This document shows, one piece after another, positions 5,901 to 40,320 of a DNA stretch of 64,000 bases. Location: assembly GCA_029204225.1 (NCBI GenBank), contig CM055092.1, positions 25,462,288 through 25,526,287 on the forward strand, given 5' to 3'. The stretch's first letter is position 1. Every line of letters begins with the position of its first letter. This stretch comes from Diphasiastrum complanatum (Eukaryota > Streptophyta > Lycopodiopsida > Lycopodiales > Lycopodiaceae). The position numbers and the translations under genes are program-made. Under the pieces are notes generated by a model. The model had not been told where the DNA came from. It worked only from the letters and a program-made list of their open reading frames with translations, and searched no databases.

Positions 5901-8430
5901 TGAAGCTTATGTACACCTATTTGGGTAGACTTCAATCAACCTCAACTCGAGCCTAGTTAGTATTTCTATCTTCAATAAATTTTTGAACTCGAGAAGCCTA
6001 GACTAACTGAGAATGTATCCGCAACTCAATTCAAACCTCATTGAGGAGTCATAAATTAGCCTAGACTTTAAATCGATTTAATGTATTGTTCAAGTTATTA
6101 CTGTTGTAGGTTGAGCCTGACCTCGAACCAAGTTCGAGCTGAGAAATCTCACCTTCAACATAATTTGATGATAGTCAACATGAACCAATCGAATTCTAAA
6201 ATAAGTTTTGTAATCATATTAGGTCTAAGTTTAGATATCTCAACTCGAACATGGTTCGAGATGAGGCCCTTCAAATAAGCTCAAATTATGTGAGTGCACT
6301 TAGAAATTGAAGAGCCTCAACTCGAATTGATAAATCTTCAATTTGACCTTAATTTACTGGCAAATATCATATCTCTATAAATTAACTCGTTTACATGTGT
6401 AGTATGCAATAAAGCATACTATGCAACAAGCTTTGAGTCATTAAATCATGTCTATATGATGAAGCATACACAACAACTATGCAATGAAGCATACTGAACT
6501 CAAACTCAACATGAACCTGGTTCGAGTTGAGAGTCTTCAAACGACTCATTAATAGGTGTACTATTATGCAATGAAGCATGATCACTTATAATTGTCATGA
6601 ACACAACTAGAACTTTGTTATCTAGAATTATCTATTTGATATGTATACTTATTGATGAGACTTAATGGACTTGGTTCATAGTTAAAGACCAATCCCATTC
6701 ACTGCTATAGCTTGAACTTCTCTCAAGATATAACTCGAATTCAAGGTACATTCAAGATTGTTTATACATCATCAAATTCATTGAATGCTCAGCTTCAACT
6801 CAAACTAGGTTCGAGTAGACAAGTCTCATTTCAACTCCATCAAAGACCCAACTATAGACACCTTTCCACAAAAACTCACTACCATGAATCACTTATCAAC
6901 TAACCTAAACCTGAAAAAGTAACCTAACATCAAACTTTATTGCATATGAATAAAATTGAACCAATCTGTTTCCAATATAATATTTGTAGTCAAATTAGGA
7001 CAAAGTGTAGATATCTCAACTCGAACTTGGATTGAGTTGAGACTCTAATTATGTGAGTGCAGTTTGAAATTGAAGAGCCTTAAGTCTAACAAGATTCAAG
7101 TTGAGAATAGTTCACTTTGGCCTTTATTTATTGCAAATATCATATCTTTATAAATTTAACATGTTTACATGTGTATTGTGCAATAAAGCATACTCAGTTG
7201 TACTCAAACTTGTTCTCGAGCTCACCTCAACTCGAACCTGGTTCGTGTTCTTGTCTCCAATAAACTCAACATGACAAGACTTGAGTGACTCAACAAAACT
7301 ACCTCTCAAACTAGGACTCGTAGTCAAACTTGATCTCCACTTGAACAAGATTAGAGTCCTCAACTTGAGATTGTTATGAGTTCTTGTCTTTCTTCACACA
7401 CAACTGGAGCTTGCTGGCTCGAGTTGGCAAGACTTCAGTTGGCAAGGAGTCAAACTCAACTCACCTCAACTCCACCTTGATTTGAGTTCAATAAAGTAGA
7501 TCCTACAGGACTAAATTGAACGAGAATCTATCATCAACTAAACTCAAACCTTGTTCATCAATCAACCTAGACTTTTATCCCATTTAATCTATAGCTCAAA
7601 TATTGTGGGGTGAGATTGAACTCGAACCAGGTTCAAGCTGAGAAATCTCAACTTCAATCTAATTTCATGATATCTTGATCATGATCTTGAATTGGAATTG
7701 GACTCTAAACTAAATCTAAACTTCACCCTGAAGAAGAAACTTCACATGAAATTTTACTGAATATGAATCAACCTGAACCAATCTATTTCTAATATAATCT
7801 TTGTAGTAAAATTAGGTAAATGTAGATTGCTATCAGTTTCTGTCTTTCTTCACACACAACTCGAGTCTAGCTTGAGTTGGCAAGACTTCAGCTGGCAAGA
7901 ACTCGAACTCAACTCAACTCATCTCACCTCATCTCCACTCAACCTTAATTCGAGATCAATAAAGTAAACCTTACAAGACTAAACTAAACAAGAATCTATC
8001 ATCAACCCAACTCGAACCTTGTTCATCAATCAACCTAGACTCGAACCAGGTTCGAGTTGAAAAATGTCAACTTCAATCTAATTTTATGATATATCTTGAT
8101 CATGAACTTGAATTGGAATTGGACTTCAAACTAAATCTAAACTTCACCTAAAATTTTACTGAATTTGAATCAATCTGAGCCAATCTATTTCTGATATACT
8201 CTCTGTCATCAAATTGGGTAAGTGTAGATATCTCAATTCGAAAGTGGTTTCTAAACAAACAAGCTCAAAATATGTAGGTGCAGTTTGAAATTGAAAAGCC
8301 TCAACTTGAACCAGGTTCGAGTTGAGAAACTTTCACTTCACAATTTAATTTACTGAAAAAAATTATATCTATATAAATTTAAGTCGTTAACATGTGTACT
8401 ATGTACTAAAACATACTCAGCTCAACTACA
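5900..8430. repeat. Degenerate long-period tandem array
   Basis: Long blocks recur in the same order. The block starting near TCAAATTAGG...GTAGATATCTCAA and running through GAAATTGAAGAGCCTCAACT to ACATGTGTA.TATGCAATAAAGCATAC is found at about 6207-6420, 6984-7195 and 8206-8415. The block from TCTTCACACACAACT through CAAGACTTCAG.TGGCAAG to GAATTGGAATTGGACT is found at about 7380-7715 and 7845-8130, with an older trace at 5985-6200. There is no coding potential beyond chance. The units have diverged by many substitutions and gaps. Confidence 0.8.
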
Positions 8431-10690
8431 CAAACACAACACTAAGCTCCCAAGCTAAACTATGAACTTCAATAGCCCAAGTGTGCTACTTCCAATTCAA
8501 ATTTCGAAGCCCACCCATATTCCAAGTTGAACTGATCAATAGCCCATATGTTGTACCTCGAATTCAAATTTAGAACCGCACCCATAACCAAGGCAGCTCT
8601 CTTGGAGAAGTCGCTTCATATGTATTGTGTAGGCAATTAATCGATATTTGTAGACATTTTTTTTTGAACCATATTAGATTGTAGTCCTTATCTCTATATT
8701 CCCAATTTCTAATTCAGATTTGGCTTGTGCACCAAAAGTATTTATTTTAGCCAAAGTCTTGGGTTATTTCATTTTAAGCTATTTCTCTGAAACCATATAT
8801 GAAGGTAAGCAAGCCATATCTCTATCAGCTTTTGGAGTACTTGATTTTGCTACAATCATCATAGCTTCATGAGATTATGGAGTACTTGATGTTGCTATGG
8901 TCGATTCCATTCTATTTTCCTTTGAGATCTTCTGATTTAGAAACATGAATGAAAACACTTATCATTAAAAAAGACCTGATAGTACTACTTAGTGAATCAA
9001 TAAACCGTCAAAAGAAGAAATATATAGGAAACTTATATAGCATATATTCTTTGACATTGATCATTTGATTTGTTTCAAATGTATGTTTTTTATAACTTTA
9101 TATTTGTATAATAACAAGAACTTAACTTGGGAATAAACACTTAATACTTTTGGTTTCAATATCTATTAAAATATTAAAAAAATATAGTTTGTGTATTTTA
9201 GATTACTTTGTTTCTGTAGATCCTATTCTTTAAAGTCTCATAAGGAGTTATGTTGAAACCTCACATTTAGTAATCAGATCTTCAGTATATAAAGGAAAAT
9301 GTAAAATTTCCATGAATGTGTAATTCCATTCAATTTCTAGTTGAAGTTCAAATCCTGATTGAATGAATGTATGACAAACATACATACCATGAATCTAGTT
9401 CAATGTAAAAGACTACACCTCTTAGGAGAAAAGCTTTGTCATGTCTTCTTCAAGCTGTGAATCCATCTTGTTAGCATTGCTAGAAAAAAATGATTCTTCT
9501 AACTTGAACCAGGTTTGAGTTTGAAGTATCTACATGACAGCAAGAAGTTCTTGGCTCCATCAGAATAGTGTCCCTACGACTGAAACCTAGTTGAACTTGT
9601 GTTGCTGTTTTTAAAAACTATCTATATATTTATTACATCAAACATTGGATACAATAGTGTGCCTTTAACTTGAACCTAGTTCGAGTTGTGAATCAAAACA
9701 TGCTAGTATTGCTAAAAAAACACTGTAACACCAACTAAAAATATTATTTTCAGATTATTGGAAGGATATGAATTTACTATATCCCATATTTTGAGGTGCT
9801 TAGGTGGTTCAGCAGTTCAAGATTCCTGATTTGGATCGAGGAATGAACAAGAGAATTTGATTTCTCCTAACTTGAAATAGACTAGAGTTGTGAGTGTTCA
9901 TGTGGCATTCAAAGTTCTTTCTCACAAACATGACTAAATGATTATGTAAATTGAACATTTTTTTATTGATTTTAGTCTGTGTGTGGATTTTATTCTTTAA
10001 GGTCCATACAAATTTATATTGAAATCTCACATTATTATTTTTTTCTATCAACCCCCCCTCTTTAATATATCAAACATAATGTACAATTACCATGAATGAG
10101 TGGAGTATTCTTTAAAGTCCCATAAGGAGTTGTAGTGAAACCTCACATTTGGTAATCAAATCTTTAGTATATAAAGGAAAATGTACAATTTCCATGAATA
10201 TGTAATTCCATTCAATTCCTAGTTGAAGTTCAAATCCTGGTTGAATGAATGTATGACAAAAATACATACCTTGAATCTAGTTCAATGTAAAAGACTACAC
10301 CTCTTAGGAGAATAGCTTTGTCAATAAGACATGGTTTAAGACTTCTTCAAGCTGTGAATCCATCTTCTTAGCATTGCTATAAAAACATGATACTTCTAAC
10401 TCAAAACAGGTTCGAGTTTGAAGTATCTACATGACATCCATAAGTTCTTGGCTTGAACATAATAATTCTAACTCAAAACCAGGTTCAAGTTTGAAGTATC
10501 TACATGACATCCAGAAGTTTTTGGCTTGAACATAACTGGTGTTTGGAGTGATTGGAATATTGTCTCTGCAAATCAATCCTAGTTGAACTTGTGTTGCTAT
10601 TTTTAAATACTATTTGTAGATTTATTACATTGAACATTGGATACAATAGTGTGCCTTTAACTCGAACTTGGTTTGAGTTGTGAATCAAAA
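6120..10690. repeat. Dispersed palindromic motif, type 1 (AACTCGAAC-N3-GTTCGAGTT)
   Basis: At least sixteen recognisable copies of a palindrome with 7-9-bp arms CTCGAAC/GTTCGAG and a 3-nt spacer lie in this interval. Good copies are at 6242-6262 (spacer ATG), 8039-8057 (spacer CAG) and about 8302-8323. Others lie near 6121, 6510, 6795, 7020, 7226, 7620, 9500, 9667, 10396, 10470 and 10660. They occur in both the 5.9-8.4 kb array and the 9.2-10.7 kb duplication, often followed by TTGAG or TTGTGAA. Function is unknown. Confidence 0.75.
8431..9220. other. No feature recognised
   Basis: This is AT-rich spacer between the two arrays. A short repeated phrase (GAGTACTTGATTTTGCTA / GAGTACTTGATGTTGCTA at about 8837 and 8880) is the only structure seen. 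Confidence 0.5.
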
Positions 10691-10700
10691 CATGCTAATA
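9228..10700. repeat. Direct duplication, unit about 870 bp
   Basis: The sequence from ATTCTTTAAAGTC.CATAAGGAGTT through TTCAGTATATAAAGGAAAATGTA, GAATGTATGACAAA.ATACATACC and GACTACACCTCTTAGGAGAA to GAACATTGGATACAATAGTGTGCCTTTAACT is present at about 9228-9720 and again at about 10104-10690. The second copy has an internal 65-bp duplication around 10395-10530 (CATGACATCCA.AAGTT.TTGGCTTGAACATAA twice). A partial third trace lies at about 9980-10090. No ORF is convincing. Confidence 0.82.
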
Positions 10701-10894
10701 TTACTAAAACAAAATGTAGTATCAAAAGTGTGGTTCAAATGTTTCTTTTGGATGATAAGGTCCACAAGAGAGCCCAAATGCCGCAGGGAGGGAGCATGTG
10801 GTGACACTCTGGAATAGGATATAATTGTACAGTTCGGGAGTTTTGATTAGCACTCTATTATGTTCTCTTTTTGTTTTCTCTTCCTGTGTGTTTA

Positions 10895-10911
10895 AGGTTT
10901 AGGGTTTAGGG
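10895..10911 (+). repeat. Telomere-like TTTAGGG run at the palindrome end
   Basis: Two to three TTTAGGG-type units occur here (GGTTTAGGGTTTAGGG), followed by a GT-rich stretch. The reverse complement (CCCTAAACCCTAAACC) is at about 21407-21422, and a further copy is at about 21888-21905. It is far too short for a telomere tract. It could be a telo-box or a chance relic inside the repeat. Confidence 0.6.
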
Positions 10912-11430
10912 TGTGGGTGTGTGTGTGTGCATGTGCATGTAAGTATGATGCCATTTGTTTATGTTTCATGGGTACTAGTTCATGCTATCCTAGTTCATAG
11001 TATCCTGATTTATGTTTTATGCTTACTAGTTCATGCTACTCTAATTTGTAGGATCTTGATTTATTCATGCTACTTTAATTTGTAGGATCTTGATTTATGT
11101 GTTATGTATAAGTTATGCTTCATTGTTAGGCTTTTTCCTCACCATGGGATCAACATAGGGAATAACTTAACAGGGTGCAACACTTCCAATATCATGCTAC
11201 TACGAGAATGGCTATACATGTCTCAAACTCTATTCTAACTAGCGATCCCAGACACGTTTTATCAACCAAACCGTACCTTCACAGTTAATAGAGGGTCTCC
11301 TATCCTCTAGAGACATAACTTATGAAGGGGTATACAATCACTCTCAATCACATTTCTATCTCATTTGCCTATGGAACTCATTAACTACTCACCAATCATA
11401 CTCGTCGAAGTTCTCTCTCTCTGAGCCATC

Positions 11431-11661
11431 TCAAGAATTTGTACTACTAGCCGAACCAATTGATTGTAATGGAATCTCTAGAGAAGGTTGTGTCACTTCT
11501 ATATAGCGAGTACATAAAGCATCAATAAGGCGCCAGAATCTATCAACAGTGAGCTCATGGCCTTCAAAGTAACTACAATCTCCACATTGCTGTAATCTGA
11601 TCAAGATATCAATAGGATATTGGTAAGGATATATCTCAGAAGAATAGACATAGTGGCTCAT
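11431..11661 (-). CDS. Conserved small ORF in left palindrome arm, function unknown
   Basis: This 76-codon frame reads MSHY.YSSEIYPY and continues with DILIRLQQCGDCSYFEGHEL and CTRYIEVTQPSLEIPLQS. The right-arm counterpart at 20628-20921 (plus) is open for 97 codons and shares most residues, with differences at scattered positions. Shared reading frames in two diverged copies give modest support for former coding sequence. The family is not recognised and a transposon origin is likely. Confidence 0.35.
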   Translation of the reverse strand: MSHYVYSSEIYPYQYPIDILIRLQQCGDCSYFEGHELTVDRFWRLIDALCTRYIEVTQPSLEIPLQSIGSASSTNS

Positions 11662-11813
11662 AGTTCCCTCTCAGATCACTTGACATACATCACCAAAAGA
11701 CGGTGTGAAGTCAAGGTCTGTCATATAGACGTCTAACCTACTTTTAGTAGTGAATTGTAATAGTGACTGAGACTCTCTTTAGCTGGTATGGTACTGAATT
11801 GTCTACGTTTCTC

Positions 11814-12059
11814 TTAAGATTCTATCCTCCAGAATAGGATCAGAATTATGACATCTCTTGTTCTCCTCGGATCTATGATGGGTAAAATAAAAGGCTCAGT
11901 TGATTCCATTATCTTCTCGAGCTCACTACTATAATAATATATCTCAATGAGGATAATCTCCAAGCTTTTATAGGAGATGGGGAGGGCTTTGCCACCTTCG
12001 AATGATGCCAAAGTGGTGGTTATATCATAATCATACCATAAATTTTTTTTGCTCACCAC
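11814..12059 (-). CDS. Conserved small ORF in left palindrome arm (LWYDYDITTTLASF)
   Basis: This 81-codon frame begins MVSKKNLWYDYDITTTLASF and has GGKALPISYKSLEI and EPFILPIID. Two further copies exist in the right arm (19537-19791 and 20293-20523, plus), both open with mostly conservative changes. A TATAAAAGCTT string overlaps its middle, so the frame may instead be a promoter-bearing leader of a retroelement. Function is unknown. Confidence 0.35.
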   Translation of the reverse strand: MVSKKNLWYDYDITTTLASFEGGKALPISYKSLEIILIEIYYYSSELEKIMESTEPFILPIIDPRRTRDVIILILFWRIES

Positions 12060-13160
12060 CCATGTGCTTTTGTCATTTATCTTTTACTCCCATTTAAGTG
12101 TGCATCGAGTCCTTGCATCTTATTGGACCATGTTTAGACTTTGCAATTGTGGAAGGTGGGGAAGGGTTGACTTGCCCATTTTGTCATTTTCTATTTTCTC
12201 ATTGCAAGGTAAGACCCACTGACCAAAGTCAAGAGTCTTTAAGATTGTGGTCTCCTCTCGTCTCTTATACAAGGAAGGGGAGACTCTTCTTTTTCTTTTC
12301 TTTTCTCTTTTTATTTTGTCAAGTTGAAATGTCCCATAGCAGTTGCGGTGGGTCACACCCGTTTAGGACCGTCCTTGTCTTTGGAGGGTTGCACCTTGTA
12401 TGTCAAGGATCTAACCTTTGCTCCCAATATCAAGTTGAGTGCCTGAACTGTTATTGCTTCTCTTAGATCAGCTTTGTTGGCTTCTTGGTGATTTGCATAG
12501 GAATCTTTGCTGATGCTCTGATGTCGATTCTCTTCAACTCTTTGGTCTCAGATTTCTTTTTGGGTTTCAAGGAAAAGGACGTCCTGCAAAATCTCAGATA
12601 TCTTTTTATATTGATAAAAATCCGAGGTTACATAGATGAAATCAGGCGTACATTAGCCGAAATAAAACTTGATAGCCAATTCTAAGGCTATTTTTAAAAA
12701 ACCCTGTAGTTCTTTTATTTGTCAAACTGGGACTCCTTCGGCATAGGCTATACTGTCACACTTTGATTTAATCAACTTCTCTTAGTAACCATACAAGTTA
12801 TTGCATAAAACTTTGAAAATTAGCTCGATTTTGTGTGCTAAAAAATCGGCTAACACTTTGGCGACTTTCACTGGGGATGAGGCCACTCCCCACATAATGG
12901 ACCTAGCAAAATTTTTCTTATAAGGATCTACGGAGGCTCAGTACACTCCATTGTGTAACTCTTTGTGAACTTCATAGTAACGTAGTTTAGAACCACTGGT
13001 TCATAATTTTCTTATCCATTGGGCATGGAGTCTGGTTCTCAGCAACAATATCCAAGGCTAGTGATGAGCCCTAGAATCAAGTAGTGACAGATCTTCATGA
13101 TACCTACATTACATCCACCTATGTTGGCTTATGATCCCACTCTTATCTGACTTTCTATAT
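12060..13160. other. Left-arm sequence without an assignable gene
   Basis: Short frames (12098-12466 plus, 12120-12356 minus) overlap each other on opposite strands and are rich in Phe/Arg/Lys from a T/C-rich tract, so neither is trusted. The stretch is conserved in the right arm. A part of it (TTAGCCGATTTTTT, TATAGCC.A..G.GTCCCAGT) also resembles 55290-55450, which suggests an LTR-type origin. Confidence 0.4.
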
Positions 13161-13530
13161 GTTACCTCCATGAATGCGTGATATCAAGAAGAAAAGCAAA
13201 AAAATAATTAGCTTAATAGAAAAGAAGACAATGAACTTTATACTCGAAGCCTACTACTTGACGTAAGTCAAAAATAGTGTCACTAATAGATAAATTAGTT
13301 GCTCCTGCAAATTGAGCTTGTCAAATATTTGAAAGTGTTTGAAAATGTTACAATGCAATATAAATACATCGATGCTAGAAAGATACAATGGTGGATGTGA
13401 TGTAACATTTTGTCCCTACCATTTTACAACAAGCTTTGCAAATAAGGACAAAAATTATTATATTATTTATGAGACAACCATATGTTTTTAAAGCAAAGGG
13501 GATTAAGTTTTTACCAAACGCATGGTCATT

Positions 13531-13716
13531 CTAATCTTGCGCCTTCTCTTGAGCTTTGTGAGATGCAATAGCCCCTTGTGTGATTGAAGAACAATGAATG
13601 AGGTATTGTCGAGAGGGATCACCAATAGCAACATCACACAGAGTACAAAGGTTAATGACAAACAAGTCATAGGAGAGTTGCAAGAGTGGAAGAATTGGAC
13701 ATGCAACCAACGACAA
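13531..13716 (-). pseudogene. Captured gene fragment 1 in repeat X (GDPSRQYL motif)
   Basis: The minus frame shows DVAIGDPSRQYLIHCSSITQ followed by GAIASHKAQEKAQD. The same peptide, with few changes, is readable in copy 2 (27053-27352, minus) and in part at 17870-17960 (plus, right arm) and 48530-48640. Retention of one frame across copies, with changes that are mostly conservative, supports former coding sequence. I do not recognise the parent protein. Confidence 0.4.
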
Positions 13717-14122
13717 GCTGAGTGAAGGAATAAGTTTGCTATGTGAGAGTATTTTGAAAAAGTAATTGTTGATTTTCCACCAAAGGTTTTAAAAGGAATC
13801 ATAAAAGGCTACACTAGTGGAAGTAGCCATCTAAGAGTGGGAAGATCATGTTGAAAAGCTAAATTGTAGATATCCACATGAGCCACAGAATAAAGAAGAA
13901 GAAACGATTCCAATATGTGGCTTTTCAACGGACTTCAATTGTTGCAAAAAGGTAATGTAATTGTTATTGTTGAACTGAATTTCGCACCACGTTGAACCCA
14001 CGAAGCAATATCAACGTGGCAAACCTTTTGAATTGACAAAATCTTTAAAATTCAAAAGTTCCCGGTTCTTTGCTTTTACTTTTAGGGTTGCGGGGACTGA
14101 ATTCAACAACTACCTGCACAAG

Positions 14123-14239
<117 letters not shown>

Positions 14240-14337
14240 AACTGACGCAGACTTTTCTAAGCGTTCTTTGTCACGTGATACAAGATATGCATTGTGTAGC
14301 AATTTTGTGCAGCAAAATTCATCTGTTTCCCCACGAA

Positions 14338-14830
14338 ATGGAAAATTATCGCTCGAATATCCAGGAAATAGCAAACTCCACGCCTGCTAAGGGTGATGGA
14401 TCACGCCAGATAAGTCATGAAAAGTTTCCAGGACAAGCTCCCAATTTAGGTGACCATGAAGTTGATTCAATTATGCACTCTTTAGGATGGATGCCCTGGG
14501 ATACATACCAGGGTTATAGGGAATATGTAAGGTTTCCCTCTTCTGGAAATATGAGCAATGTAAATATTGTAAAGGTCAAGTATCTCTTACGATTTCAAAA
14601 TCCATAAAAGATGAAAACCTTTTTGACTTTGATGGTGAGAAACTTCGAAGCTGATTCAGGTATAAAGTTGTTCTTTCGCTTTTAATGTTTCTAATGCTAT
14701 TTTTGAGCTTTATAATTATAAAACGCAGGTTGTATGGACCACTATTTCTTGAAAATATAATCGTCTGCAGGTGTCAATGGAATACGTGTTTGGCAGCTGA
14801 ACAAAGATGGGAAATGGCTCCAGAGCTCCG
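14338..14830 (+). pseudogene. Captured gene fragment 2, copy 1 (stop codon and 18-bp deletion)
   Basis: The ATG at 14338 starts a frame with MENYRSN, ISHEKFPGQAP and LGWMPWDTYQGYREY. It ends at 14605-14607, where copy 2 has GAA and this copy has TAA. About 18 bases that copy 2 has just after this point (LPEMQQ) are missing. The donor (CAG|GTATAAAG, intron from 14660) and acceptor (CTGCAG|GTGTC at 14770) are preserved, and exon 2 reads GVNGIRVWQLNKDGKWLQ. Compare the intact frame at 27820-28329. Confidence 0.7.
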
Positions 14831-15510
14831 GTAGATAATAGATCTACAATGTTACGTAGAATCAGTTAAAAATTCTATTTCCCTTCAAAAATATAGAATT
14901 TGTTTGTTCTCCAATGTCTTAGTCTGTGTTGTTCCACTTTTCATTTTGGAACAATAAGTGCTTAGCTTCTAGAATTTCTCACTCAGTTATGCATGGATCT
15001 GGAATCGCTATGCATGTTTATTCCTTCAATAATGAGCACCTCTCTCTCTCTGTCTCTCTCCTTCTCTCTGCATTTCTACGTCTTCAGCAAGTACGCTAGA
15101 ATGATGCTTAATCATTTGCAGAGTTTTGTCTTATAAGCGGAATTGGGTATTACCGAAAATATGGTGATGCGTCAGACTTCACTATGTTAGTCATGAAAGG
15201 ACAGTTTCTTTATTCTCTTTAACTAACGCGCGTTCAATATTCACATACAAACATTCAAAGAGGGATAACTGGGTTGATGATCTGTCATGTAGCAAAATGC
15301 CGGAAGCATAGCCGTCTAGGGCAGATTACGCTCATGTGATGGAGAGTCTGGCCGCTTCATCATATATTGTCTACTTCTTCAAAATTATTTCAAATATTGG
15401 CATACTAACGTTTCTAAAGCATTAGCTAAGATATTCCAGGCGTTCTTAGAAAATATCATCCCATGAGAACTTTGAAATAAAAGGCAGAATTAGTATTAGT
15501 TTGAACTGTA

Positions 15511-15654
15511 AGTTGCATCAAAGTTGCTGGTTGACGGTAAGTTGACTCTCGGCTGCTGTAGAGTATGGAATATTAAAACCTGAGTTGCATCAAAGTTGCT
15601 GGTTGACGGTAAGTTGACTCTCGGCTGCTGTAGAGTATGGAATATTAAAACCTG
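15511..15654 (+). repeat. 72-bp tandem duplication
   Basis: AGTTGCATCAAAGTTGCTGG through GGAATATTAAAACCTG occurs twice (15511-15582 and 15583-15654). The right arm (17180-17255) and X copy 3 (50830-50900) have it once, so the duplication happened in this copy. The frame across it on the minus strand is an artefact. Confidence 0.9.
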
Positions 15655-16029
15655 GTGCCCCAAACTTGATTTGGTGTCACCCATAATTGTCCCCACGTAG
15701 CCTCTGAATCAACTCTAGAGTCAGTGTTCCAGTCTCATTTTGACACTAGGCTAAAGGGCAAATATGAGTTACATGCGATACCACCTGTGAACGTAGCGCT
15801 CGATATTGATAAAGGCACATTGACGGAGAGCGAGGCCTGAGAAACTCGCTAGGAGGATGAATTCAGCTTAGAGGTGTTTTGGGTTGGGAGAAGAGAGGCT
15901 ACTTAGAGCTTTAGCGCCCATGTATAATAAATGATAGGAGTACATGGCTCGGTTTGCTTGCTTTTAAAAACAATTATCCATTCTTGGCTTTTATAACATT
16001 GGCCTTATAATGGATGTACAATGCTAAAT

Positions 16030-16815
16030 CAATCTACTCCTTTTATTGTGTTCAATATTACGTCAGAATATATGCATCTCTGTGATTGTTTTGTAACTTC
16101 ATAAGAAGTACGGGACATCCTGAGCTTAATATCTGGTGTGAGTGACGTAACTTCTAAGTTCATCTAAAAAAAAATGTTCACTCTCAAGTTGTTCAATGGT
16201 ATTCACTTCAGAATCACGTTAACTAATTTAAGAATCTCTTGTAACAGATGGTTACAAGATGGTCGCTGTCAGATCAGTCATTGACGATCAAGACGCAATT
16301 ATGACATTGCTTTCAAGCTTGCCCTCTACATATGAGAACTGCGTGATGATCATATCGATGCACTCAAATTTAACTCTTACTACAGTTATCACCATGTTGC
16401 TAAAAGAAGACAGTCTTCTTCGACTGTCTTCTTTTAGCAACATGGTGATGACTCTAGTAAGAGTTAAATTTGAGTGTGTCGATATGATCATCACGCAGTT
16501 CTCATATGTAGAGGGCAAGCTTGAAAGCAGTGTCATAATTGCGTCTTGATCGTCAATGACTGATCTGACAGCGACCATCTTTTGACCATCTGTTACAAGA
16601 GATTCTTAAATGGGTTAACGTGATTCTGAAGTGAAGACCATTGAACAACTTCAGAGTGAACATTTTTTTTTAGATGAACTTAGAAGTTACGTCACTCACA
16701 CCAGATATTAAGCTTAGGATGTACCGTACTTCTTATGAAGTTACAAAACAATCACAGAGATGCATACATTCTGACGTAATATTGAACAAAATAAAAGGAG
16801 TAGATTGATTTAGCA
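16030..16815. pseudogene. Inverted pair of Copia gag/LTR fragments at the palindrome centre
   Basis: Both arms encode the same gag peptide reading outward-to-centre: VRSVIDDQDAIMTLLSSLPS, then TYENCVMIIS.HSNLTLT and VITMLLKED (16259-16420 plus; 16578-16417 minus). This is the UBN2 part of Copia gag. Farther out, both arms switch abruptly to sequence matching the LTR at about 47320-47385 (ATGCATACATTCT.A.GTAAT). The fragment is therefore an internally deleted piece of the Copia lineage at 45-48 kb. About six differences were counted in the 165 bases nearest the loop. Confidence 0.85.
16396..16441. repeat. Perfect 20-bp stem with 6-nt loop: palindrome centre
   Basis: Arm 16396-16415 (GTTGCTAAAAGAAGACAGTC) is exactly repeated as its reverse complement at 16422-16441, separated by TTCTTC. 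The match continues outward as the giant palindrome. Confidence 0.97.
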
Positions 16816-25553: not shown

Positions 25554-26688
25554 CTAACCCATCAACCTATAAGTTTTATCTGAAGTAAAGTAGCTGATGA
25601 AAATAAACGTAATACTATGGAAGTCGAGCTTCTTCGTGAGATCATGTAGAATTTGCAAATAATGAGAGATATATCCAAAAACTCGTAAGTCTGATAAAGA
25701 AGGTTTGGAGACTGTCCAAACTTCATACGGTGTTTTGTCTAAGAGACCTTTAGTAGAACATCTATTTTGAATATGAGCTGCAGTGGAAACAGCTTCAGCC
25801 CGAAAGGACTTCAGAAGTGTCGCATGTGCTAGCATGCACTTTGTCAATTCGACTAAGGTTCTATTCTTTCTCTCAGCAAGACCATTTGACTGAGGCAAAT
25901 AGGAAATAATGTATTTTTGCTCAATGTCGTTGTTAAGGCAATACTCCTTGAATTCGGTAGAGATGTATTCTCCCCCGTTGTCAGACCTTAGTGCTTTGAT
26001 TATTTTACCAATTTGATTTTCTGTATGCTCTTTGAATTGTCGAAATATTTAGAAAGCCTCCGATTTATGCTTGATGAAATAAGCAGCTGTTGTTCTCGAA
26101 TATTCGTCAATGAATGTAATAAAATATTTTGCACCAAGCAATGACGAAGTTTGCATTGGACCACATATATCTGAGTGAACAACATCGAACAATCTTTTGT
26201 TGCATGCCTATAATTCAATCTGAAGGGAATCCTAGTCTACTTTCCAAAGATGTAGCTATGACAGACATGGAGGTCGACTTTGTCGGATGGATAGTCAAGA
26301 TCAAGTGCTAGGGGTTGTTTAGACATGTATGAAACGGATGTATGATTCAAGTGTCCTAATCGATGATGCCATATTAATGCTTTATTGACAACAACATAGG
26401 TTTTCAGGGCTTGACTATTATCATTATAGCAATGTGTCAATCTATATAAGTATCTATGCCTCTTACCGAGTGCAAGGACCTTACATCGATAATTCGGCAT
26501 TGATCATACTCAAACTCTACCTGATGACCAAACTCAGTGATTCTACTTACTGATAACAAATTCGTATAGAGCCTAGGTACATACAAAACATATAATAGTA
26601 GTTTGAATTGATCATGCTGGAATTTCAAGAAGATGAAAATGGCAACCAAGTGAGATAAAGGAGAGTATGGAGCATATTTGACCTCCAT
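25554..26688 (-). pseudogene. Copia pre-integrase and integrase remnant
   Basis: In element order on the minus strand: YVPRLYTNLLSVSRITEFGH (26600-26530), the pre-integrase HHCC part WHHRLGHLNHTSVSYMSKQP with CHSYIFGK (26380-26240), integrase core pieces with ALRSDNGGEY near 25990, and PQSNGLAERKNRTLVELTKC through TPYEVWTVSKPSLSDLRVFG (25898-25690). The frame is broken by shifts and stops, and gag and reverse transcriptase are missing. It is the same lineage as 45136-45910, where the same residues recur (VLALGKRH.YLYRL, LALDLDYP.DKVDL). Confidence 0.88.
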
Positions 26689-29490: not shown

Positions 29491-29770
29491 GCTCTGATAC
29501 CATGTTGAATTTCACACATGTGGGATTGCCAAAAAGTGTGCTATTAACCTCCTAAGATTTGTGATTGCTCATAAATCACAATAGATTGAAAACCGAGATC
29601 TATTCCATCATTAAGGCAATAGCACTTTTCTACATGCATAAATCAACCTGAACTTTGTGAAAGGTCAATGAAGAACATGTGAACTGTCCAAATTTGACTT
29701 CTGCACCTCAAGCAACCTACCTACGGAATGAGCTGGCAAAATCTTGCACATCTCGCACACCTTGCAAATC
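29491..29770 (-). mobile_element. Copia primer site and LTR remnant
   Basis: The minus strand at 29502-29491 reads TGGTATCAGAGC, preceded by an LTR end (GAAATTCAACA, starting at 29503). The rest of the LTR continues to about 29770, where the GA tract cuts it off. No matching TGTTGAA start is seen, so the LTR is truncated. Confidence 0.7.
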
Positions 29771-29771
29771 A

Positions 29772-29975
<204 letters not shown>

Positions 29976-29984
29976 CTCACATGT

Positions 29985-31035
29985 CTCGTATCTCCAATAT
30001 CTCACCTAATGACACTCGATAAGGGGCAAGAAAAATACCTGTCCCTAATGACACTTCATTTGGGGCAGGAAGAAAGCCGCCTCTAAATTACGTCGTTAAA
30101 ATTTTAAATTGACAAGGTGTGTGTGTGTGTATTTTTGTATGTGTAGTACATATAGTATAGTCACCCCATGAATTAATCCTATATGTATATGGTACACATG
30201 TTAAATGGAATTTTCATTGCATGTATTTTAGGGGCGACGGGCCCCCAATGACACTTTATAAGGGGCAAGAACCTCCCCCGGCCCCCCAATGACACTTGAT
30301 AAGGGGCAAAGAAAAAAGCCGCCCCTAAATTACATCTTTAAACTTTTAAATTCACAAGGTGTGCGTGTGTGTGTATTTTTGTATGTATGTATGTATAGTA
30401 CATATAGTATAGTGACCTCATGCATTAGTCCTACATGTATACGGCACACATGTTAAATCGAATTTTCATTGCATGTATTTTAGGGGCAGGAAAAAACCTG
30501 GCCCCAAAATTACATCTTTAAAATTTTAAATTCACAAAGTGTGTCTGTATTTTTGTATGTATGTATGTATAGTATATATAGTATAGTGACCCCATGCATT
30601 AATCCTATATCTATATGGTACACATGTTAAATGGAATTTTCATTGCATGGGACAGGAAAAAACCTGGCCCCAAAATTACATCTTTAAAATTGCATGGGAC
30701 AGGAAAAAACCCGCCCCTAAATTACATCTTTAAAATTATAAATTCACAAGGTGTGTGTATTTTTGTATGTATGTATGTATATTACACATATAGTATAGTG
30801 ACTCCATGCATTAATCTTATATGTATATGGTACACATGTTAAATGGAATTTTCATTACATGTATTTTATAAGCAGGAAAAAACCTGCCCCTAATGACACT
30901 TGATAAGGGGCAAGAAACAACCCGCCTCTAATGACACTTGATAAGGGGCAAGAAAAAACCTGCTCCTAATGATACTTCATTAGGGGCAGGAAAAAACCCG
31001 CCCCTAAATTACATTTTTAAAATTTTAAGTTTACA

Positions 31036-31070
<35 letters not shown>

Positions 31071-32826
31071 GTACATATAGTATAGTGACCCCATGCATTA
31101 ATCATATATGTATATGGTACACATGTTAAATGAAATTTTTAATGCATGTATTTTAGGGGTGGGAAAAACCCCGCCCCTGATGACACTTCATAAGGGCGGG
31201 AAAAACCTGCCCCTAAATTACATCTTTAAAATTTTAAATTCACAAGGTGTGAGTGTATTTTTGTATGTATGTATGTATAGTATATATAGTATAGTGACCC
31301 CATGCATTAATCCTATATCTATGTGGTACACATGTTAAATGAAATTTCATTGCATGTATTTTAGGGGCGGGAAAAAACCTGTCCCTAATGACATTTCATA
31401 AGGGGCAGGAAAAAAGCTGCCCCTAATGACACTTCATAAGGGGCAAAGAAAAAACCCGCCCCTAAATTACATCTTTAAAATTTTAAATTCACAAGGTGTG
31501 TATATTTTTGTATGTATGTATGTATATTATACATATAGTGACCCCATGCATTAATCCTATATGTATATGGTACACATGTTAAATGGAATTTTCATTACAT
31601 GTATTTTAGGGGCAAGAAAAAACCCGTCCCTAAAGACACTTCATAAGGGGCAGGAAAAAAACTGCCCCTAATCACACTTGATAAGGTGCAAGAAAAAACC
31701 CGTCCCTAATGACACTTCATTAGGGGCTGAAAAAAACCCGCCCCTAAAATACATTTTTAAGATTTTAAATTTACAAGCTGTGTGTGTGTGTGTGTGTGTG
31801 TTTGTATGTTTGCATATATAGTACATCTAGTATAGTGTCCCCATGCATTAATCATATATGTATATGGTACACATGTTAAATGAAATTTTCATTGCATGTA
31901 TTTTAGGGGCTAGAAAAACCCCGCTCCTAATGACACTTCATGAGGGGCAGGAGAAAACCCGCCCCTAATGACACTTCGTTAGGGACTGGAAAAAAAATTA
32001 CATCTTTAAAATTTTAAATTCACAAGGTGTGTGTATTTTTGTATGTATGTATGAATGTATATTATACATATAGTATAGTGATCCCATGCATTAATCGTAT
32101 ATGTATATGGATATCACATGTTAAATGAATTTTTCATTCAAAATTTTTTAGGGGCCGGAAAAAACCCGCCCCTAATGACACTTCATAAGGGGCAGGAAAA
32201 AAATCCGCCTAATGACACTTGATAAGGGGCAAGAAAAAACCCGCCCCTACTGACACTTCATTAGGGGCAGGAGAAAACCCGCCCCTAAATTACATTTTTA
32301 AAATTTGAAATTCAAAAGGTGTGTGTGTGTGCGTGTGTGTTTTTGTACGTTTGTATGTATCGTACATATAGTATATTGACCCTACGCATTAATCATATAT
32401 GTATATGGTACACATGTTAAATGGTATACCCCGTATTGTGTGTGTGTGTGTGTGTGTGTGCTCAATATGTAAATAATGTTAAAATGTATTTGTGTAGTAG
32501 TACATATATAAATTAAATGTATGCGCTTAAGATTGGGTTTGAGCTATTTCAATGAAACCCATATCACACATGCATGTATACACATATGCTCATAAACTCT
32601 AGCATAAAAATGAAGGGGCACAATACAAATCTTGCCCCTGATAGCTGCATCTAATGCACAAAAAGGGGCACATATAATATCCGGCCCCTTCTAGCCACCC
32701 TTGATGCATAAATAAGGGGCACATTTTAAATCCCGCCCCTACTTGTTGCCATTTATGTAAAAATAAGGGGCACTTTAAATATCCCGCCCCTTATGGCTGC
32801 TCCTAATGGCATGTTTTCTTGTAGTG
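29985..32826 (+). mobile_element. CACTA terminus with about ten tandem subterminal units
   Basis: The end at 32813-32826 reads GTTTTCTTGTAGTG, reverse complement CACTACAAGAAAAC, a standard CACTA terminus. Inward lie short GGGGCAC...CCCGCCCC units (32615-32800). Then come about ten units of 175-300 bp, each with a GGGGCGGG-A5-CCCGCCCC-type hairpin, CACTTCATAAGGGGC, a GT/GTAT tract and GGTACACATGTTAAAT (near 30193, 30441, 30616, 30828, 31117, 31324, 31567, 31865, 32107, 32405). No transposase is present. The plus-strand frames (30615-31338) are made by the repeat. The 5' terminus was not found, so the element is incomplete or lost its left end at the GA tract. Confidence 0.85.
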
Positions 32827-32828
32827 AA

Positions 32829-33400
32829 AATTTTGGTTACCTTTCGTAGATGTCTATATTGATGATGCATTAAATGCTTTTCACTATAGTATGACATGTT
32901 TATAGAGGTTTGGGATCAAATCTAAACATGTGTTCATTATTGGGAGACTCAAGTAGGTGTTGATTAGGTTTTGATTTTATTTCATTTTGAAAAAGTGTAG
33001 AAATTGCCTAACATAAAAGGAAGTGATTTTTTATGCAACTATTCTTTGAATCTTAAATTTTTACAAAAACAACCATACCCAACATTGCCAATGGCCAATT
33101 TAGCAACCCTTACTACAAAAACAACAAGCGCAATGGTCATGCTACTAATACACTAATATATCACATCCTCAAATAAGAGTTCCAAACATAGTTGCTATGT
33201 AGTAGCTATATACACCACTAAGCATATCCATGAAGACTTTCTCGTAGGCTTACAAACCCTACAACATGATCTAGCTTCTTATAATTTTAAAAAAACATGC
33301 ACAAAAACAACAACTATCAATAAATACTATATTTTATTTCAAAGTTTTATATCATCTAATTTGTAGCTTCAACACAACATGCCACTAAAATCTTGTCTAA
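32829..33400 (-). repeat. Repeat block R, copy 2 (inverted)
   Basis: Read on the minus strand it matches 24300-24905, ending CATCTACGAAAGGTAACCAAAA exactly where the CACTA terminus of 29985-32826 begins. The CACTA element therefore appears to have inserted into block R. Confidence 0.85.
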
Positions 33401-33589
33401 TGTAGAGACTCTCATAATCTTTTAGGAAATTTATGTATCACAAAAAAATGATAATCACAAACTGTGTACTCACATGCATCGACTTCTTGTTCGATGTCAA
33501 CTAGTCAATTAATAAAGTGTAACTGCATCTGTGAGCAATATGATTAATATTACAGTGAGTTGAAATACATCATACTGCCTCAATTATTT

Positions 33590-36540
33590 ATTAGGTGGTT
33601 CATCGTTGTCATTTGCCACATATCATATGACAAATCCGCCAAACCAAATGAGTCTATCTCTAATTCTACCCAAATATCTTATATAGCTTCATTATTAATA
33701 AGCTGATCTTCAAAAGCTAATGGCGACGGTGACAACGAGTGAGATCGAGAAGGTGTATTATGTGTCATCGATCCATCCGATGATGATGCATCATGCCCAA
33801 CATCATCATTAGCTTGTGAAGCTTCCACATGATCATCCTCTGAAAATGTGTCATCGAATCCATCATCATGATCTTGTTCATGAGGTGCATCAGCTGGGTG
33901 CACCATGTCCTCCATGACATCTCTATCTTCAAAACTTCTTTTACTTCGAAGAACGACTTAACGATCGGGGTACCACCATATGGGATCTGAATGATTGGGG
34001 TGAAAGACCACCTATAATTAATCAATGTTACCATAAACATTGACTTGTAGTTAGTATCCATAGCTATGTTACAATTGCTTGAATATTAGTATACACAATA
34101 TACATTTTTGCAGTATAATGAAAATCGATTGATTGACAACAAAAGAGCATCACAACTACACATATATGCATTTTGCCACGTGACGATGCCACGCGAACCC
34201 AATACTTAGCCAAAATTTTGACATTTTTTTTTGCGTGGCACTGCCACATCCATGCCAAATCTTTTCCGGGGACCTTGCCAGTGAAATCTAGGCTAGAGGT
34301 GGGGTTCGACAACAAATTTTTAATTTTTTTAAACTCAAAATTCGGAATATGAGTGCCAAACTATGTCGGCGTGTCACAACCACACGTGGAAGTGCTACGT
34401 ACGACTGTTATTGAACCACTTGTCGTGTGATATGTACCTTTGGAGATTTGTCACGCGTGGCAAATCTCCAAAGAAAATTTGGAGGAGATGACTCTTTTTA
34501 TTGCCACGCATGGAAAAATTTGCCACGCGTGGCAATATCAAAACACAATACTTAAAGAGATTTGGCTTTGGAAATTTGCCACTCGTGGCAGAATTAGTTT
34601 GTTGTAATTTTTTTTTTAACTATTATGAATAACAACAACTTTATGATTAATGAAATGTGAACTAAAAATCAAATGATTATTATGTCAAATTATTATGCTC
34701 TGACGAATTAAAGCTATTAACGGTTGAATATAACATGCTATCCTAAACATTTATGGACATTATGATGTGTTTCTATATAGAGAAAATACCAGAATCAAAA
34801 TTTGACATTAATCTCAATATGGTATTAATGGGTAAAACTATAAGTGTGAGCTAAATTTGCACTTAAAAGGATGCTAAGTACCTTGCAATTGAGAGCCATG
34901 TGGTAGCTTGTTAAGCTAATTTGTTGATAAAAAAGTTGCAATGTTATACAGGTTTGTGTGTTTGCAAAGATGAATGAATACTCAAACATTGTGGCAAAGT
35001 GTAATATTATCTCGAAGAAGATGTTTTTTAATTATTATAGATAAATGATCAACGTTTTACATTTTCTAATTGTTCTCTTAATTAGTTCACGCATCTATTA
35101 ATATTGATAAGCTTTTTCAATTCTAAGTAAATGCAACATCATAGAAAAATGTAATAATTTTAATTTAAAAACAATATATATTGACCACAATGTATCATTC
35201 TATGAAATAATTATTGCTTGAAGAGGGTTGGTGTTGATTCTAACTTCTTGTCTTGTGCTTGTCTTTGGTAAAGAGAGCTTTACCAACAATGTTTAGGATT
35301 TAATATTAGTTATGATCATATTTTAATTCACAATAAATAGAAGTAATGAAAAAGTAATGTAGATGATTAATATAACATTGATCACAATTGACAAAAAGAA
35401 AAAATGTGAAATTCATGCACACCTGTTCACAATGAGGAGGCAACACCAATGTGTCTGAAAAGTCCATGCTTAATGTCTTGGTTGAATCGATAGCAAAAAA
35501 TCCACTACCATCTTTTTTTATAGTTGCATTTGATCCTCTATATTGATTTTGAGCCATTTCACGTCAAACAACAAATACTTACCCATTTCACGAAAACACA
35601 CCTCATATATGGCTTGTATGGTTGCTACATACTCAAGCTTTCCAGAAATTGGACTTCTATCTCGAGCACTACTCCGACTTTCTTGATGGAACGATGTCAT
35701 CACACCACAATCATAGGTTCAGCGGTTCATATCAATTGATACAATGCGATGATGATGACCATATGCCCACATTGCACTATACTTTCGACATTGTCACATG
35801 TTGATTATAATTAAAACAATAATCAATTATCGTACAAATTAAAATTGTTCACTGTAAAAAAATAGAGTTATAGACAAACCTTCCAATCACATGCTCATGC
35901 AAATTTCCATTATGTGTCAGATATGAATTGTCCCTTTGATCTTGCTTGTTGGAGTGTATCAACCATCCAGTCTATGGTGCAAACATCCACCTACAGAAAA
36001 ATTTTAACACATTAATGAGAGCATCCTGTTATCAATTTAAAAGAATCACACTACATTTATTGAAACCACTAAAATCAAAATCATGTGTACTATACCTTGA
36101 GTGCACAAGACTAACAATGCCAACTTCTTGGACCGATTCTTCTCTCAATTTTTTTTCCTCGGCACTAATAAATAATTCACTATCATCCATGTTTAGTGCG
36201 TGCTTCCACGTCATCATGCTCGTAGACGTTATTTATCAAGTTTTTCATGATTTCAACTTCATCTTGAATGCAAAAATCATTTTCAGCACTTGATTTTGAT
36301 TTTGAAGAAGAAGAAGAAGAAGATCGAGGCTGATTTGTTTTGGCATGTTGTTGTTCATCTATTTTCATCATGGCTCTCAATCCCATATGCTCACGACATG
36401 ATAGTTGATTTATGTGTGGCCCATCGTATGCCAATCTTGTTTCGGAGATGGAGTGACTGTTGTCATCTACACTAGAGCTAGATGACGATTCATAGTCCTT
36501 CAAACATGGGAAACAAATTAGCATACTCATCAATTAACAT
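33590..36540 (-). pseudogene. CACTA TNP2 transposase, C-terminal (DUF4216) remnant
   Basis: Exon-like pieces on the minus strand, in order: a Ser-rich part (36533-36183, CLKDYESSSSSSVDDNSHS), TGWLIHS...DNSYLTHNG (about 35960-35890), the DUF4216 core SPISGKLEYVATIQAIYEVC with YLLFDVKWLK (35650-35530), and KDGSGFFAIDSTKTL with LVLPPHCEQV (35520-35420). Then follow WSFTPIIQIPYGGTPIVKSF (34010-33960) and the acidic tail EQDHDDGFDDTFSEDDH (33885-33680). This order is that of CACTA proteins (compare 59121-59701). Stops, shifts and a foreign-looking insert at 34.1-35.3 kb make it non-functional. The N-terminal transposase part is missing. Confidence 0.72.
34155..34600. repeat. Cluster of TGCCACGCGTGGCA-type palindromes
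   Basis: A perfect 14-bp palindrome TGCCACGCGTGGCA lies at 34521-34534. Variants (GTCACGCGTGGCAAAT, GCCACTCGTGGCA, TGCCACGTG, GTGGCACTGCCAC) fill the interval, along with an inverted pair around GAGATTTGTCACG.../AAATCTCCAAAG. A smaller cluster lies at 42724-42772. Such clustered short inverted motifs resemble subterminal repeats of CACTA or other DNA elements. 34600-35300 is otherwise unassigned. Confidence 0.65.
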
Positions 36541-36762
36541 CTAAGATTGTCATTCGTAAAAAATAAAACTAAAATTAAAACATGCAAATCAAACATCATA
36601 TCTTAAATTAAGACATGCAATATGAAATATATAAAAAACAATTAATTGACATTCACAAAGAAGAAGAAGGAAGATTGCAGCCAACTTAACACATGTTTTT
36701 TTATTTTTAAGAAAACGTTCCCACCCAGTACGTTGTGACCCAAAAGGGTCGGAACGGGTTTC

Positions 36763-36912
36763 TAAAAGACACATATATAACAAATTAATTAATACTTTAT
36801 AAACTAAATAATGTTCACAACTTATATGCGACATTAAACCACATATTTACATTTGTCAGTTTTTACAAATCACAAATTTTTTTTAAACACATGGTCATTT
36901 TGTACCAACCAT
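36763..36912 (+). repeat. 150-bp repeat shared with 42268-42412
   Basis: GACACATATATA.CAAATTAATTAATACTTTA through CTTATATGCGACAT and CACATGGTCATTTT.TACCAACCATAT occurs in both places in the same orientation. It probably marks the spacer of related CACTA elements. 36913-38200 has no recognised feature except a 14-base C run at 37229-37242. Confidence 0.85.
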
Positions 36913-39164
36913 ATAAAAAAGATATGCTTAGCCAAGGAGGTAATATGTCTTGAATCTTTAGAACCAAATTTGTTAGAAATCTTTTTGATAGGGGATGGTG
37001 TTGCCAAAAATGCCCTATCAAGGTAAGGGCCCTCACTGCCCCTACGTGAGAACATGGATCACAATCCTGAGGTCCTCTCTATACTCCTTGATTTCTTAAA
37101 ACTCCCAAAAGTATAGCTACAAGAAGAATCATATCAATATCTAATGGTGTCAATCTCAAGGCTTTCTATGTTCATTAAAAAAAAAATTGTTTATTCTTGG
37201 TACAAGCATATTGTACGAGTATGTACAACCCCCCCCCCCCCCAAAGGGGTTGTACATGAAGATATATTTTCTCTAACCCAATGTACTTGTCTAACTATCT
37301 CAAGGGCTAAATCTGATGTGCGAATATTCTCATGTGTGGTGTCGAAGATCATGAATTCAATGACTAGCCATCTTTAAATCAATAGTACTTGGCAATAATA
37401 AAAGGCGGACGACATTCTTTGGACATGTCTAGCTTAATTGTGGTTAAATTGATATTATCGATAAACAAATAAGGCGGTTTAGTTGGATGCAAACATGGTC
37501 ACAATGTCAAATATTGTTATTTCGTTTAGTATATTTTAATTTAACTACTTTCATTCATCCCATAAATCATTTTCTTTTCCACATACTTGTTAATTAACAC
37601 AGTATAAGCCCCTAAACTTCATGCCTATCTCATTTAGAAGCTTATTCATTGAATGAAATCACTCTCATGCTAGATTGGTTGGTGCCTTTGAATAGTTCCA
37701 ATTCTTACTAGTTGCACTCTCTATCTATTCTCTTGATGATATCATGTGTACTTCTTCTCAGATAGTGGATTTGGTTTGCTAGACGACATTTTAGCATATC
37801 TAGTGGAGGTGGCATTAGTCAAATGCCATGACTCATCAATCATAAACTCATATACCTCAAGGAAGTCAATGTCATCGTCATGTTACACTCTACATAATAT
37901 ATCATCACTTGGTAGATTATGGTGAAACTCCAGGACATGGAAATGATAATGGGATATTCCCCTCTGGATCAATTGGAAAATGTCACTAGGGAGGGACAAG
38001 AATTTAAAGTTAAACTATGTCATATGAATATCAAGGTAGTTATATCATTAACAATGTTCTATCAATGGGGTAGATATAGAATCATTTTTTATGGATACAA
38101 GCGTTAGTTTAGATGATTGTACAGATTTTGATCATGCTTGAACTAGGGCTTTGTTTATAGGTCCCAGAACTATCAGTATGCTTTTTTCAGCCAATTAAAC
38201 CCTAATCATGTTGACTATTTACAATATAGATAATAATTCTTTTTTTGACATTATCGGACATATCGGATCATTTTTATTTCAAAGAGGCCGAGGGTCTTTG
38301 CATTTTGAGTAAGGAGCTTCATGAATTTTCTGATATAACTGATTATAATGTTCATGATCTTCTCCCCGGTGTTGACGATATAAATAAGGATGAGTTTATG
38401 ATTTGAAATTTAGTACATACAAAGTGAAGCACAATACTACTTATTTCTAGTAATGTTTTGCTTCTCTTATCCTTAGCAAATCTTGTGTATTTCTTTTTAG
38501 ATTTTTAAGTAGGTTCTTGTTCGCAAATCCAAAATGATAGAAGTTTTTGGATACAATAGCTTTCATTCACTAGAGAAAGAAATCAGTTCTGTGGTAAAGT
38601 TCTAATGATCTTTTGGATACTTTTTCTTTGCCAATCTTCATATGTGATTGGATAAAAAAGTTTGCAGTGCACTCTTCACAAGAGAAGTGGTATTCAATAA
38701 TTAATAAACATTCAAAAACTGATTTTCTACAAGAAGAAATCCAAATGAACTTTGAAAAGGTGCCTTTCCAGCTTCAAGAAAGCAGGTACATACATGTCTT
38801 GCTTCAATTATCTGATTTGAATAATACCAATATCTTTCGAACTTTTGTATGGCTTTTTGTAGGATAATGTCGAATGACAACAGTGTCTTCATACCAAGAT
38901 AGATCATATATGAATACGTCTATATAATCTATACAAGGGCTAAACAACATGCTTAATTTTACTAAAACTCAAATGAAGTTTGAATAGCATGTATGCACTA
39001 TGATGTCATTACTGCTCAAAAAAAGTTTCAGATTTGTTTTGTTCTTGTTATATGAACATTCTTTTCTTTAATATAATATCACATTTCCAATTTTTAAACT
39101 ATATTTGTTAAGAAATCATTCTCTTTAATATAATATCACATTTCCAATGAGACCTTTAACTTGA

Positions 39165-40320
39165 AAACCTCTCGAGTTGAGTGCATTTTATATTGCTTTA
39201 CTAATCTGCCATGAAGACCTCATTTTCTATCAAAAAAAAATTATGTGCATATTGCAAGTTAATCTTTCTAACTCAAGAACTTCATTAAGGAAACTGCATA
39301 AAAAACATAAAGCTTTATAAGTATGACAATCGAACTCGAGAACTTTTCGAGTTAAAAGTCATGTCAGTTCATGACACAAATTTACATGTTAGTTTCTATA
39401 AAAATTTCATACGTACACTACTTGAGGTAAAGTGCAACTTTAGAACTTTTCAATATTAAGTTATTGCATAATTATTTGCATGATTATTCTATATTAATTT
39501 CTTTGGAAATGCATGATGTCGTGTAATATCTAACTCCTCTTTTAATATATTATAATTCAACTTTTATGAGCTTTTGTTAAAGTGAATGATTGCATGTGAG
39601 GCACCTAGCTTCAAAACTGTGAGTTGAAGTACATACTCACTTCATTACCAATAATAAAAAATTTGGAATTCTATAATTGCTCTATTCAAGCTCAAACTCG
39701 AGAATTTCTCAAGTTAATATAATGTCACACTTATTTATTAATATTTAAGTATTTTGTTTTATATTAGAGTTTTTAGACCCTGCAACGGGATCATGAAACC
39801 TAAAAAGATTTGGACTTCAGATCGGCATACTTCTTGGTTACTATTAAAAAATGTTGTTTTGTTTCTTCTGCTCAAAAAAAAAAAAAAAATCCAAAAGCAA
39901 AATCCAACTAGGACACTAACTCGAGAAATTCTCGAGTTGAAATGAGTGAACTTTTTGAATTTTACTCCCAAAATTTTGATAAATAGTTACAAAGCTTGCC
40001 TTCAACGCGGAAAGTTCTCGAGTTGATGTCATGTTTTGGATTTTCCTTTCAAACTTTTTGTTGGCAAAGACATGACTTCAACTCGAGAAGCTCTCGAGTT
40101 GAAGTCATGTCTTTTATGTCTTGGAAACATGGTGTACTTCTAATGTTTTGGTTGACTTGAGATTGAGAAAAAAAAGATAATTTGTAACTAATTCATATAG
40201 CATCTGGTCTACACATCAAAACTTCTAAATTGTTTTTGCTTTGTCATTCTTTTAGTAATGCAACTTTATGATTCTTGACTTTTCTATGATCCATGCCTTC
40301 AACTTGAGAAATTTTGAGTT
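39165..40320. repeat. Dispersed palindromic motif, type 2 (AACTCGAGA-N3-TCTCGAGTT)
   Basis: About seven copies lie here: near 39171, 39333-39353, 39695-39715, 39918-39938 (perfect 9-bp arms, spacer AAT), 40010-40026, 40071-40109 and 40300. They share the outer AACTCGA/TCGAGTT with the type 1 motif but differ in the two innermost pairs. The surrounding sequence is AT-rich and non-coding. Confidence 0.75.
40071..40109. repeat. Perfect 18-bp inverted repeat with 3-nt spacer
   Basis: Arm 40071-40088 (CATGACTTCAACTCGAGA) is exactly complementary to 40092-40109, with AGC between. It extends the type 2 motif with CATGACTTC on both sides; half-versions with GTCATGT follow other copies (39359, 40030). 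Confidence 0.96.

Follow-up and report, generated by a model that had tools for sequence, protein, structure and literature searches.

Organization of the locus

The sequence analysed, hereafter the window, is a 64 000-nucleotide stretch of the Diphasiastrum complanatum genome (C1:25462288–25526287, within an assembly of 1.745 Gb). It carries two arrays of a short palindrome, the first upstream of a small open frame that we call gene B and the second followed by the remains of a transposase-like gene. Sites were scored over the 14 outer letters of the motif (AACTCGA...TCGAGTT), with at least five letters matched on each side and a threshold of 12/14. The features are listed below in window coordinates.

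4640–5281, minus strand: gene B, an open frame of 214 aa from an undescribed family with at least 84 matches in the genome; array 1 lies upstream
6120–10679, no strand: array 1, ACC type, 16 palindromes scoring at least 12/14 in the site scan, starting at 6120, 6242, 6508, 6797, 7018, 7229, 7468, 7619, 7858, 8038, 8303, 9501, 9667, 9869, 10398 and 10659
39158–40100, no strand: array 2, GAA type, six palindromes starting at 39158, 39333, 39695, 39918, 40004 and 40080
39918–39938, no strand: exact palindrome AACTCGAGA-AAT-TCTCGAGTT
40080–40100, no strand: palindrome AACTCGAGA-AGC-TCTCGAGTT, with both 9-bp arms exact and pairing that continues beyond the site
40501–40757, plus strand: broken start of the transposase-like gene (Transposase_23-like), matching locus L021 at 81.7% over 60 aa and 68.6% over 35 aa
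40741–40931, plus strand: DUF7869 fragment of the same transposase-like gene, matching locus L023 at 77% over 44 aa and 63% over 19 aa

The two arrays contain 22 copies at or above the threshold, with one more elsewhere (start 52137); 40 random windows generated from a first-order Markov model gave a mean of 0.175 sites and a maximum of one. The original prediction had placed at least sixteen copies at 5.9–10.7 kb and about seven at 39.2–40.3 kb, and both counts are borne out by the scan, which returned 16 sites in the first region (starts 6120–10659) and, in the second, six (39158–40080) together with a base-deleted copy near 40300. Within array 1, the stretch 9229–10638 has an alignment of about 84% to L023, in which the transposase-like gene comes next; array 1 is flanked by B in the window and by the transposase gene, on the opposite side, in this relative. 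The arrangement of array 2 is repeated in L009, L016, L018, L020 and L021. The arrays contain duplicated units.

The window also holds nested tandem repeats (30005–32427; units of about 38 and 174–245 bases) that carry a G+C-rich inverted motif, AGGGGCGGG...CCCGCCCCT, and pieces of other mobile elements, namely copia-type gag and integrase (61858–63087, 25557–26048) and a DUF4218 piece (57999–58487), which we take to be part of a CACTA-type gene. The DUF4218 piece represents an element separate from the arrays.

Form of the motif

The motif is an odd palindrome of 21 bp in which two 10-bp half-sites surround one free base. Each half-site consists of AACTCGA followed by a family-specific triplet; four triplets recur (ACC, ACA, GCA and GAA) and pair across the centre as ACC-N-GGT, ACA-N-TGT, GCA-N-TGC and GAA-N-TTC. 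The motif had been described as 9-bp arms around a 3-nt spacer, but this spacer is really one extra covarying pair and a single central base. The description of the arms was idealized: it holds for two copies of the second array (39918 and 40080), whereas every first-array copy has a mismatch in at least one arm. The two inner pairs said to change together are both complementary, as judged by eye, in 11 of the 16 first-array copies and three of the six second-array copies.

Across the genome, the exact pattern AACTCGAN7TCGAGTT occurs 1,053 times, compared with 14 for a control in which the pattern is read backwards, and TCGAGCANTGCTCGA is found 462 times versus zero. Exact palindromes number 422 for the AC type, 284 for GC and 18 for GA. 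The 30 loci examined contain 258 sites, against 7, 10 and 7 when their 185.5 kb of sequence was shuffled three times. Information is high over the half-site and low in the flanks, the outer letters, unlike the inner triplet, having been used in the selection of sites.

Because a perfect palindrome is self-complementary, the sites might form hairpins, in RNA or in DNA, or might give rise to small RNAs or be targeted by them. However, the 10-bp stem would have a loop of one base, too short for an RNA hairpin unless pairs open, and the arms keep their exact letters (AACTCGA) and not mere pairing, with paired complementary deviations numbering 0–9 per outer-arm position among the 258 sites. We regard this explanation as highly improbable. 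The reversed ACC half-site (GGTTCGAGTT) resembles a tRNA B box; identification as a Pol III B box was rejected because this likeness is lacking in the GCA and GAA types.

Covariation and conservation of the sites

In the 258 sites, a set that left out near-identical overlapping loci, complementary bases occupy the three inner pairs in 198, 200 and 191 cases, where independence predicts 119.6, 161.0 and 101.8. When right halves were shuffled within each locus, 185.0, 184.8 and 188.4 remained complementary (s.d. about 3.6); the excess over this shuffle is about 4 s.d. for the first two inner pairs and absent for the third. Because the within-locus shuffle reproduces most of the symmetry, the switch is mainly one between array families, and the covariation is mostly a family-level change rather than site-by-site compensation. 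Even the small within-array excess could be produced by differing decay. Covariation is strong between arrays, with only a slight excess over the shuffle within them.

Each half-site type is common to a related set of elements. Among 274 sites, 139 carry two canonical triplets that are alike and 20 carry two that are unlike. The mixed array of L005 has three GCA and six ACA sites with zero hybrids, and the array of L055 has five ACA sites and two hybrids. The commonest damage is loss of the TCGA CpG on one side only, with half-site positions 5 and 6 deviating 38–57 times per side in the 258 sites.

The claim that the motif is better kept than its surroundings agrees with overlapping, BLAST-chosen and hence non-independent alignments, in which identity is 0.834 in sites versus 0.780 outside (with the site ahead in 476 of the 650 alignments) and CpGs are kept at 1139 of 2013 positions in sites (57%) versus 249 of 994 outside (25%). 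The arrays are otherwise CpG-depleted, with observed/expected ratios of 0.15–0.46 in 11 loci.

These observations bear on whether the symmetry is simply inherited, a few founder palindromes having multiplied through tandem duplication and transposition and serving no function today. The duplicated units within arrays, the large share of the symmetry accounted for by within-locus shuffles and the frequency of single-sided CpG-type decay are what such a history would leave behind, and within arrays the duplication of founders holds in part. It leaves unexplained that the half-site type follows the neighbouring gene, as set out below, and the better preservation of the sites and, far more markedly, of their CpGs, together with the small number of unlike-half sites compared with alike ones, also speaks against it; inheritance alone appears decidedly unlikely. 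The proposal that symmetry is maintained stands to the extent that the symmetry accompanies something functional, a site for a protein dimer being the most likely, but the paired changes are mostly not compensatory.

The transposase-like gene

A single gene family adjoins arrays of different half-site types. Its copies are broken and their pieces, which were read apart, comprise a Transposase_23-like stretch, a middle part and DUF7869. The resemblance of the L021 stretch to Transposase_23 is weak (E 0.0098; 16.2 bits, below the cut-off of 21); the L023 stretch matches DUF7869 (PF25273) at 8.8e-28. Pieces of the gene are present in the window, L006–L010, L016/L018/L020/L021, L023/L024, L027 and L029. 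When the best 150 of 2,953 genomic candidates for DUF7869 were scored, 150 of 150 lay above the cut-off. Comparison of DUF7869 with solved structures gave no meaningful match, and a literature search of limited coverage returned no paper naming DUF7869 and no palindrome array described for it.

An open frame at L023:696–1963 resembles an N6/N4 DNA methyltransferase (PF01555, 1.5e-13). Such matches number at least 173 genome-wide (best 150 of 3,926 candidates scored), and at least 16 methyltransferase–DUF7869 pairs lie within 20 kb, where 0.5 are expected (150 places each, among the matches listed). The pairs listed, some of which are copies, are divergent in ten cases and on the same strand in six, and seven have a gap of 5.1–5.2 kb. 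DUF7869 transposons in the D. complanatum genome may carry a DNA methyltransferase and, because DUF7869 elements tend to adjoin an N6/N4-type gene, these elements may be writers of DNA marks in addition to readers. Another open frame, at L055:453–617, is separated by 0.4 kb from the first palindrome to its right and resembles a host methyltransferase motif (RVLELGSGTAGLVGL, by eye); it is perhaps near the edge of the element. A similar stretch of about 80 codons inside two distant arrays (L029:3890–4162 and L054:725–1072, by eye) is perhaps another inserted repeat.

Gene B and its association with the arrays

The B proteins of the window and of L027 are distant homologues (E in the 1e-5 range, 19% identity). 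A Pfam scan of 18 B members gave no family beyond chance, and comparison of B with solved structures gave no meaningful match. Of two AF2 models of B, one had low confidence (mean pLDDT 51.7); the other (64.2) was usable in the core and contains a five-strand sheet and a long helix, with useful confidence only over residues 41–171. The pI of B ranges from 5.2 to 9.4, a charge unlike that of a typical DNA binder.

A further 24 B loci were fetched, four of which (L042, L044, L047 and L048) were known beforehand to lie near listed palindromes. A site scoring at least 12/14 is present upstream of B in 19 of the 24, and in 15 of the 20 that were chosen without knowledge of the motif. These 20 loci, many of which are related copies, hold 68 such sites in 29.9 kb; the window outside its arrays has one in 57 kb. 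The upstream sites lie 34–653 bp from the opening of the B frame, and within 34–133 bp in five loci. No upstream site at this threshold was found in L032, L036, L045, L049 and L053. Other palindromes were considered at these loci: L032 and L053 have single unrelated ones (that of L053 inside the open frame), a repeated CTCTAGAG word in L053 is a coding duplication, and L036, L045 and L049 have no palindrome upstream of B at the thresholds used.

On contigs 1–3, an exact palindrome among those listed lies within 2 kb of B at six of 15 places, upstream in all six cases; the proportion among random points is 0.05%. AC palindromes were listed as far as C3:71.45 Mb, which leaves the B place at C3:81.1 Mb unscored for AC, and the B of the window counts as a miss in this comparison because its sites are not exact. 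No B was detected in GAA-type loci, the search covering the window and 3 kb at each of the other loci.

In a tree of 25 B proteins, the half-site type changes twice over 18 labelled rows, with ACC in one half and ACA and GCA in the other; seven of the 22 inner branches are well supported. L043 (one weak site) and L046 (two weak sites) were left unlabelled, and L034 falls outside the alignment. The half-site type follows the B tree coherently, but two changes are few events, and it could follow the transposase too.

Linkage and layout of the two genes

At least 14 pairs of a B and a transposase-like gene are separated by no more than 20 kb, where 0.35 are expected (120 B and 127 transposase places, among the matches listed). 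The B places derive from 84 + 141 listed rows and the transposase places from the rows listed for that gene; for both, pieces of one place were merged and weak or short pieces left out. The linked pairs listed comprise eight divergent, six same-strand and no convergent ones; they include copies (C20/C559, two on C7 and probably two on C10), which reduces the number to about 11. Locus L029 has the transposase start (minus strand) first, then the array, then B (plus strand, opening 135 bases past the fetched end). In the GC-type loci L054 and L055 the divergent layout was not confirmed, as the arrays run past the fetched flank and the transposase start was not reached. Scattered CACTA-like words occur in the window and ten loci, with none seen bounding an array, and neither element ends nor target-site duplications were found.

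In En/Spm elements, subterminal repeats are bound by element proteins. The palindromes could likewise be subterminal docking sites for the transposase in cut-and-paste transposition, with B an accessory that has another role. This would suit the position of arrays next to the Transposase_23/DUF7869 gene in the window, the L021 group, L023/L024 and L029, as well as the GAA-type arrays, where the transposase start is present with no detectable B. It fits poorly with sites so close to the B frame in the five loci noted above and with arrays that are several kilobases long and lie mostly between both genes where both are seen, this last being a weak point with the element ends not found. On balance, we consider subterminal docking unlikely.

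Proposed mechanism

The reading that we favour, and consider probable, is that the arrays are the noncoding control region of a two-gene DNA transposon, with the palindromes as putative homodimer docking sites. The two genes would be the transposase-like protein ending in DUF7869 and the small gene B. Each 21-bp palindrome would dock one homodimer, each subunit reading one 10-bp half-site; a change in the specificity of the dimer would be matched on both halves of the site, and duplication would re-homogenize the arrays. The triplets would differ in pairs between families because one dimer reads both halves and the arrays are re-homogenized. An element-encoded homodimer is the most likely binder because 21 bp spans two helical turns, both halves change in concert and the half-site type goes with the gene next to the array. 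We infer from this pattern that a protein binds, that it does so as a dimer and that the binder is B and not the transposase; B is the likelier reader of the sites because the arrays reach within 34–133 bp of its frame in five loci. The bound protein would mark the control region of its own element. By analogy with VANC and TnpA, the likeliest effect would be to switch on the element genes or to protect the element from silencing, and perhaps to guide the transposase. A more far-reaching version, which we offer tentatively and think possible rather than probable, is an independently evolved transposon address system in which B and the half-sites diverge together, such that copies would be recognized lineage by lineage and silencing lifted (or transposition carried out) there only.

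Comparison with known systems

VANDALs are Mutator-like elements, and TnpA of En/Spm has repeated sites near gene starts. Nothing corresponding to the present system emerged from a literature search of limited coverage on the motif, on subterminal palindromes and on methyltransferases of transposons. As described in PMC5735166 and PMC10398659, VANDALs of Arabidopsis encode a transposase and carry a short motif repeated in their noncoding regions; the motif differs between related families together with the anti-silencing partner VANC, which carries DUF1985 and DUF287. The arrays described here similarly occupy noncoding parts of a transposon, and their motif changes with the partner clade, albeit with two changes over 18 labelled B rows and hence few events. 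Unlike VANC, B matches neither DUF1985 nor DUF287 (18 members, Pfam). The VANC motifs are 8–9 bases long (YAGTATTAY, AGTTGTCC/AC) in the part of PMC5735166 that gives them, and 'palindrome' has zero occurrences in its main text, whereas the site here is a 21-bp palindrome. The scanned pieces, from broken genes, gave DUF7869 or nothing and no MULE family. Judged from its sequence, the system would work like VANDAL/VANC but is not a member of it, B having no VANC domains and the transposase pieces being DUF7869.

TnpA, an element-encoded protein, is linked to loss of methylation in PMC10398659. The weak Transposase_23 resemblance of one stretch recalls En/Spm, but the scanned pieces beside the arrays contain no TNP2-type transposase. 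The likeness to a DUF7869 transposon lies in the adjacent gene with this domain (8.8e-28 in L023, and by similarity to L023 for the window fragment).

Transposons that combine a sequence-specific partner with matching motif arrays in noncoding DNA have been described for VANDALs. If the interpretation given here is true, the present elements would be a second instance, in which the proteins are unrelated and the site is cleanly palindromic, and the strategy would have arisen more than once. With a readable half-site, a variable part of three letters and the partner gene alongside, protein–DNA coevolution would be directly testable in this system.
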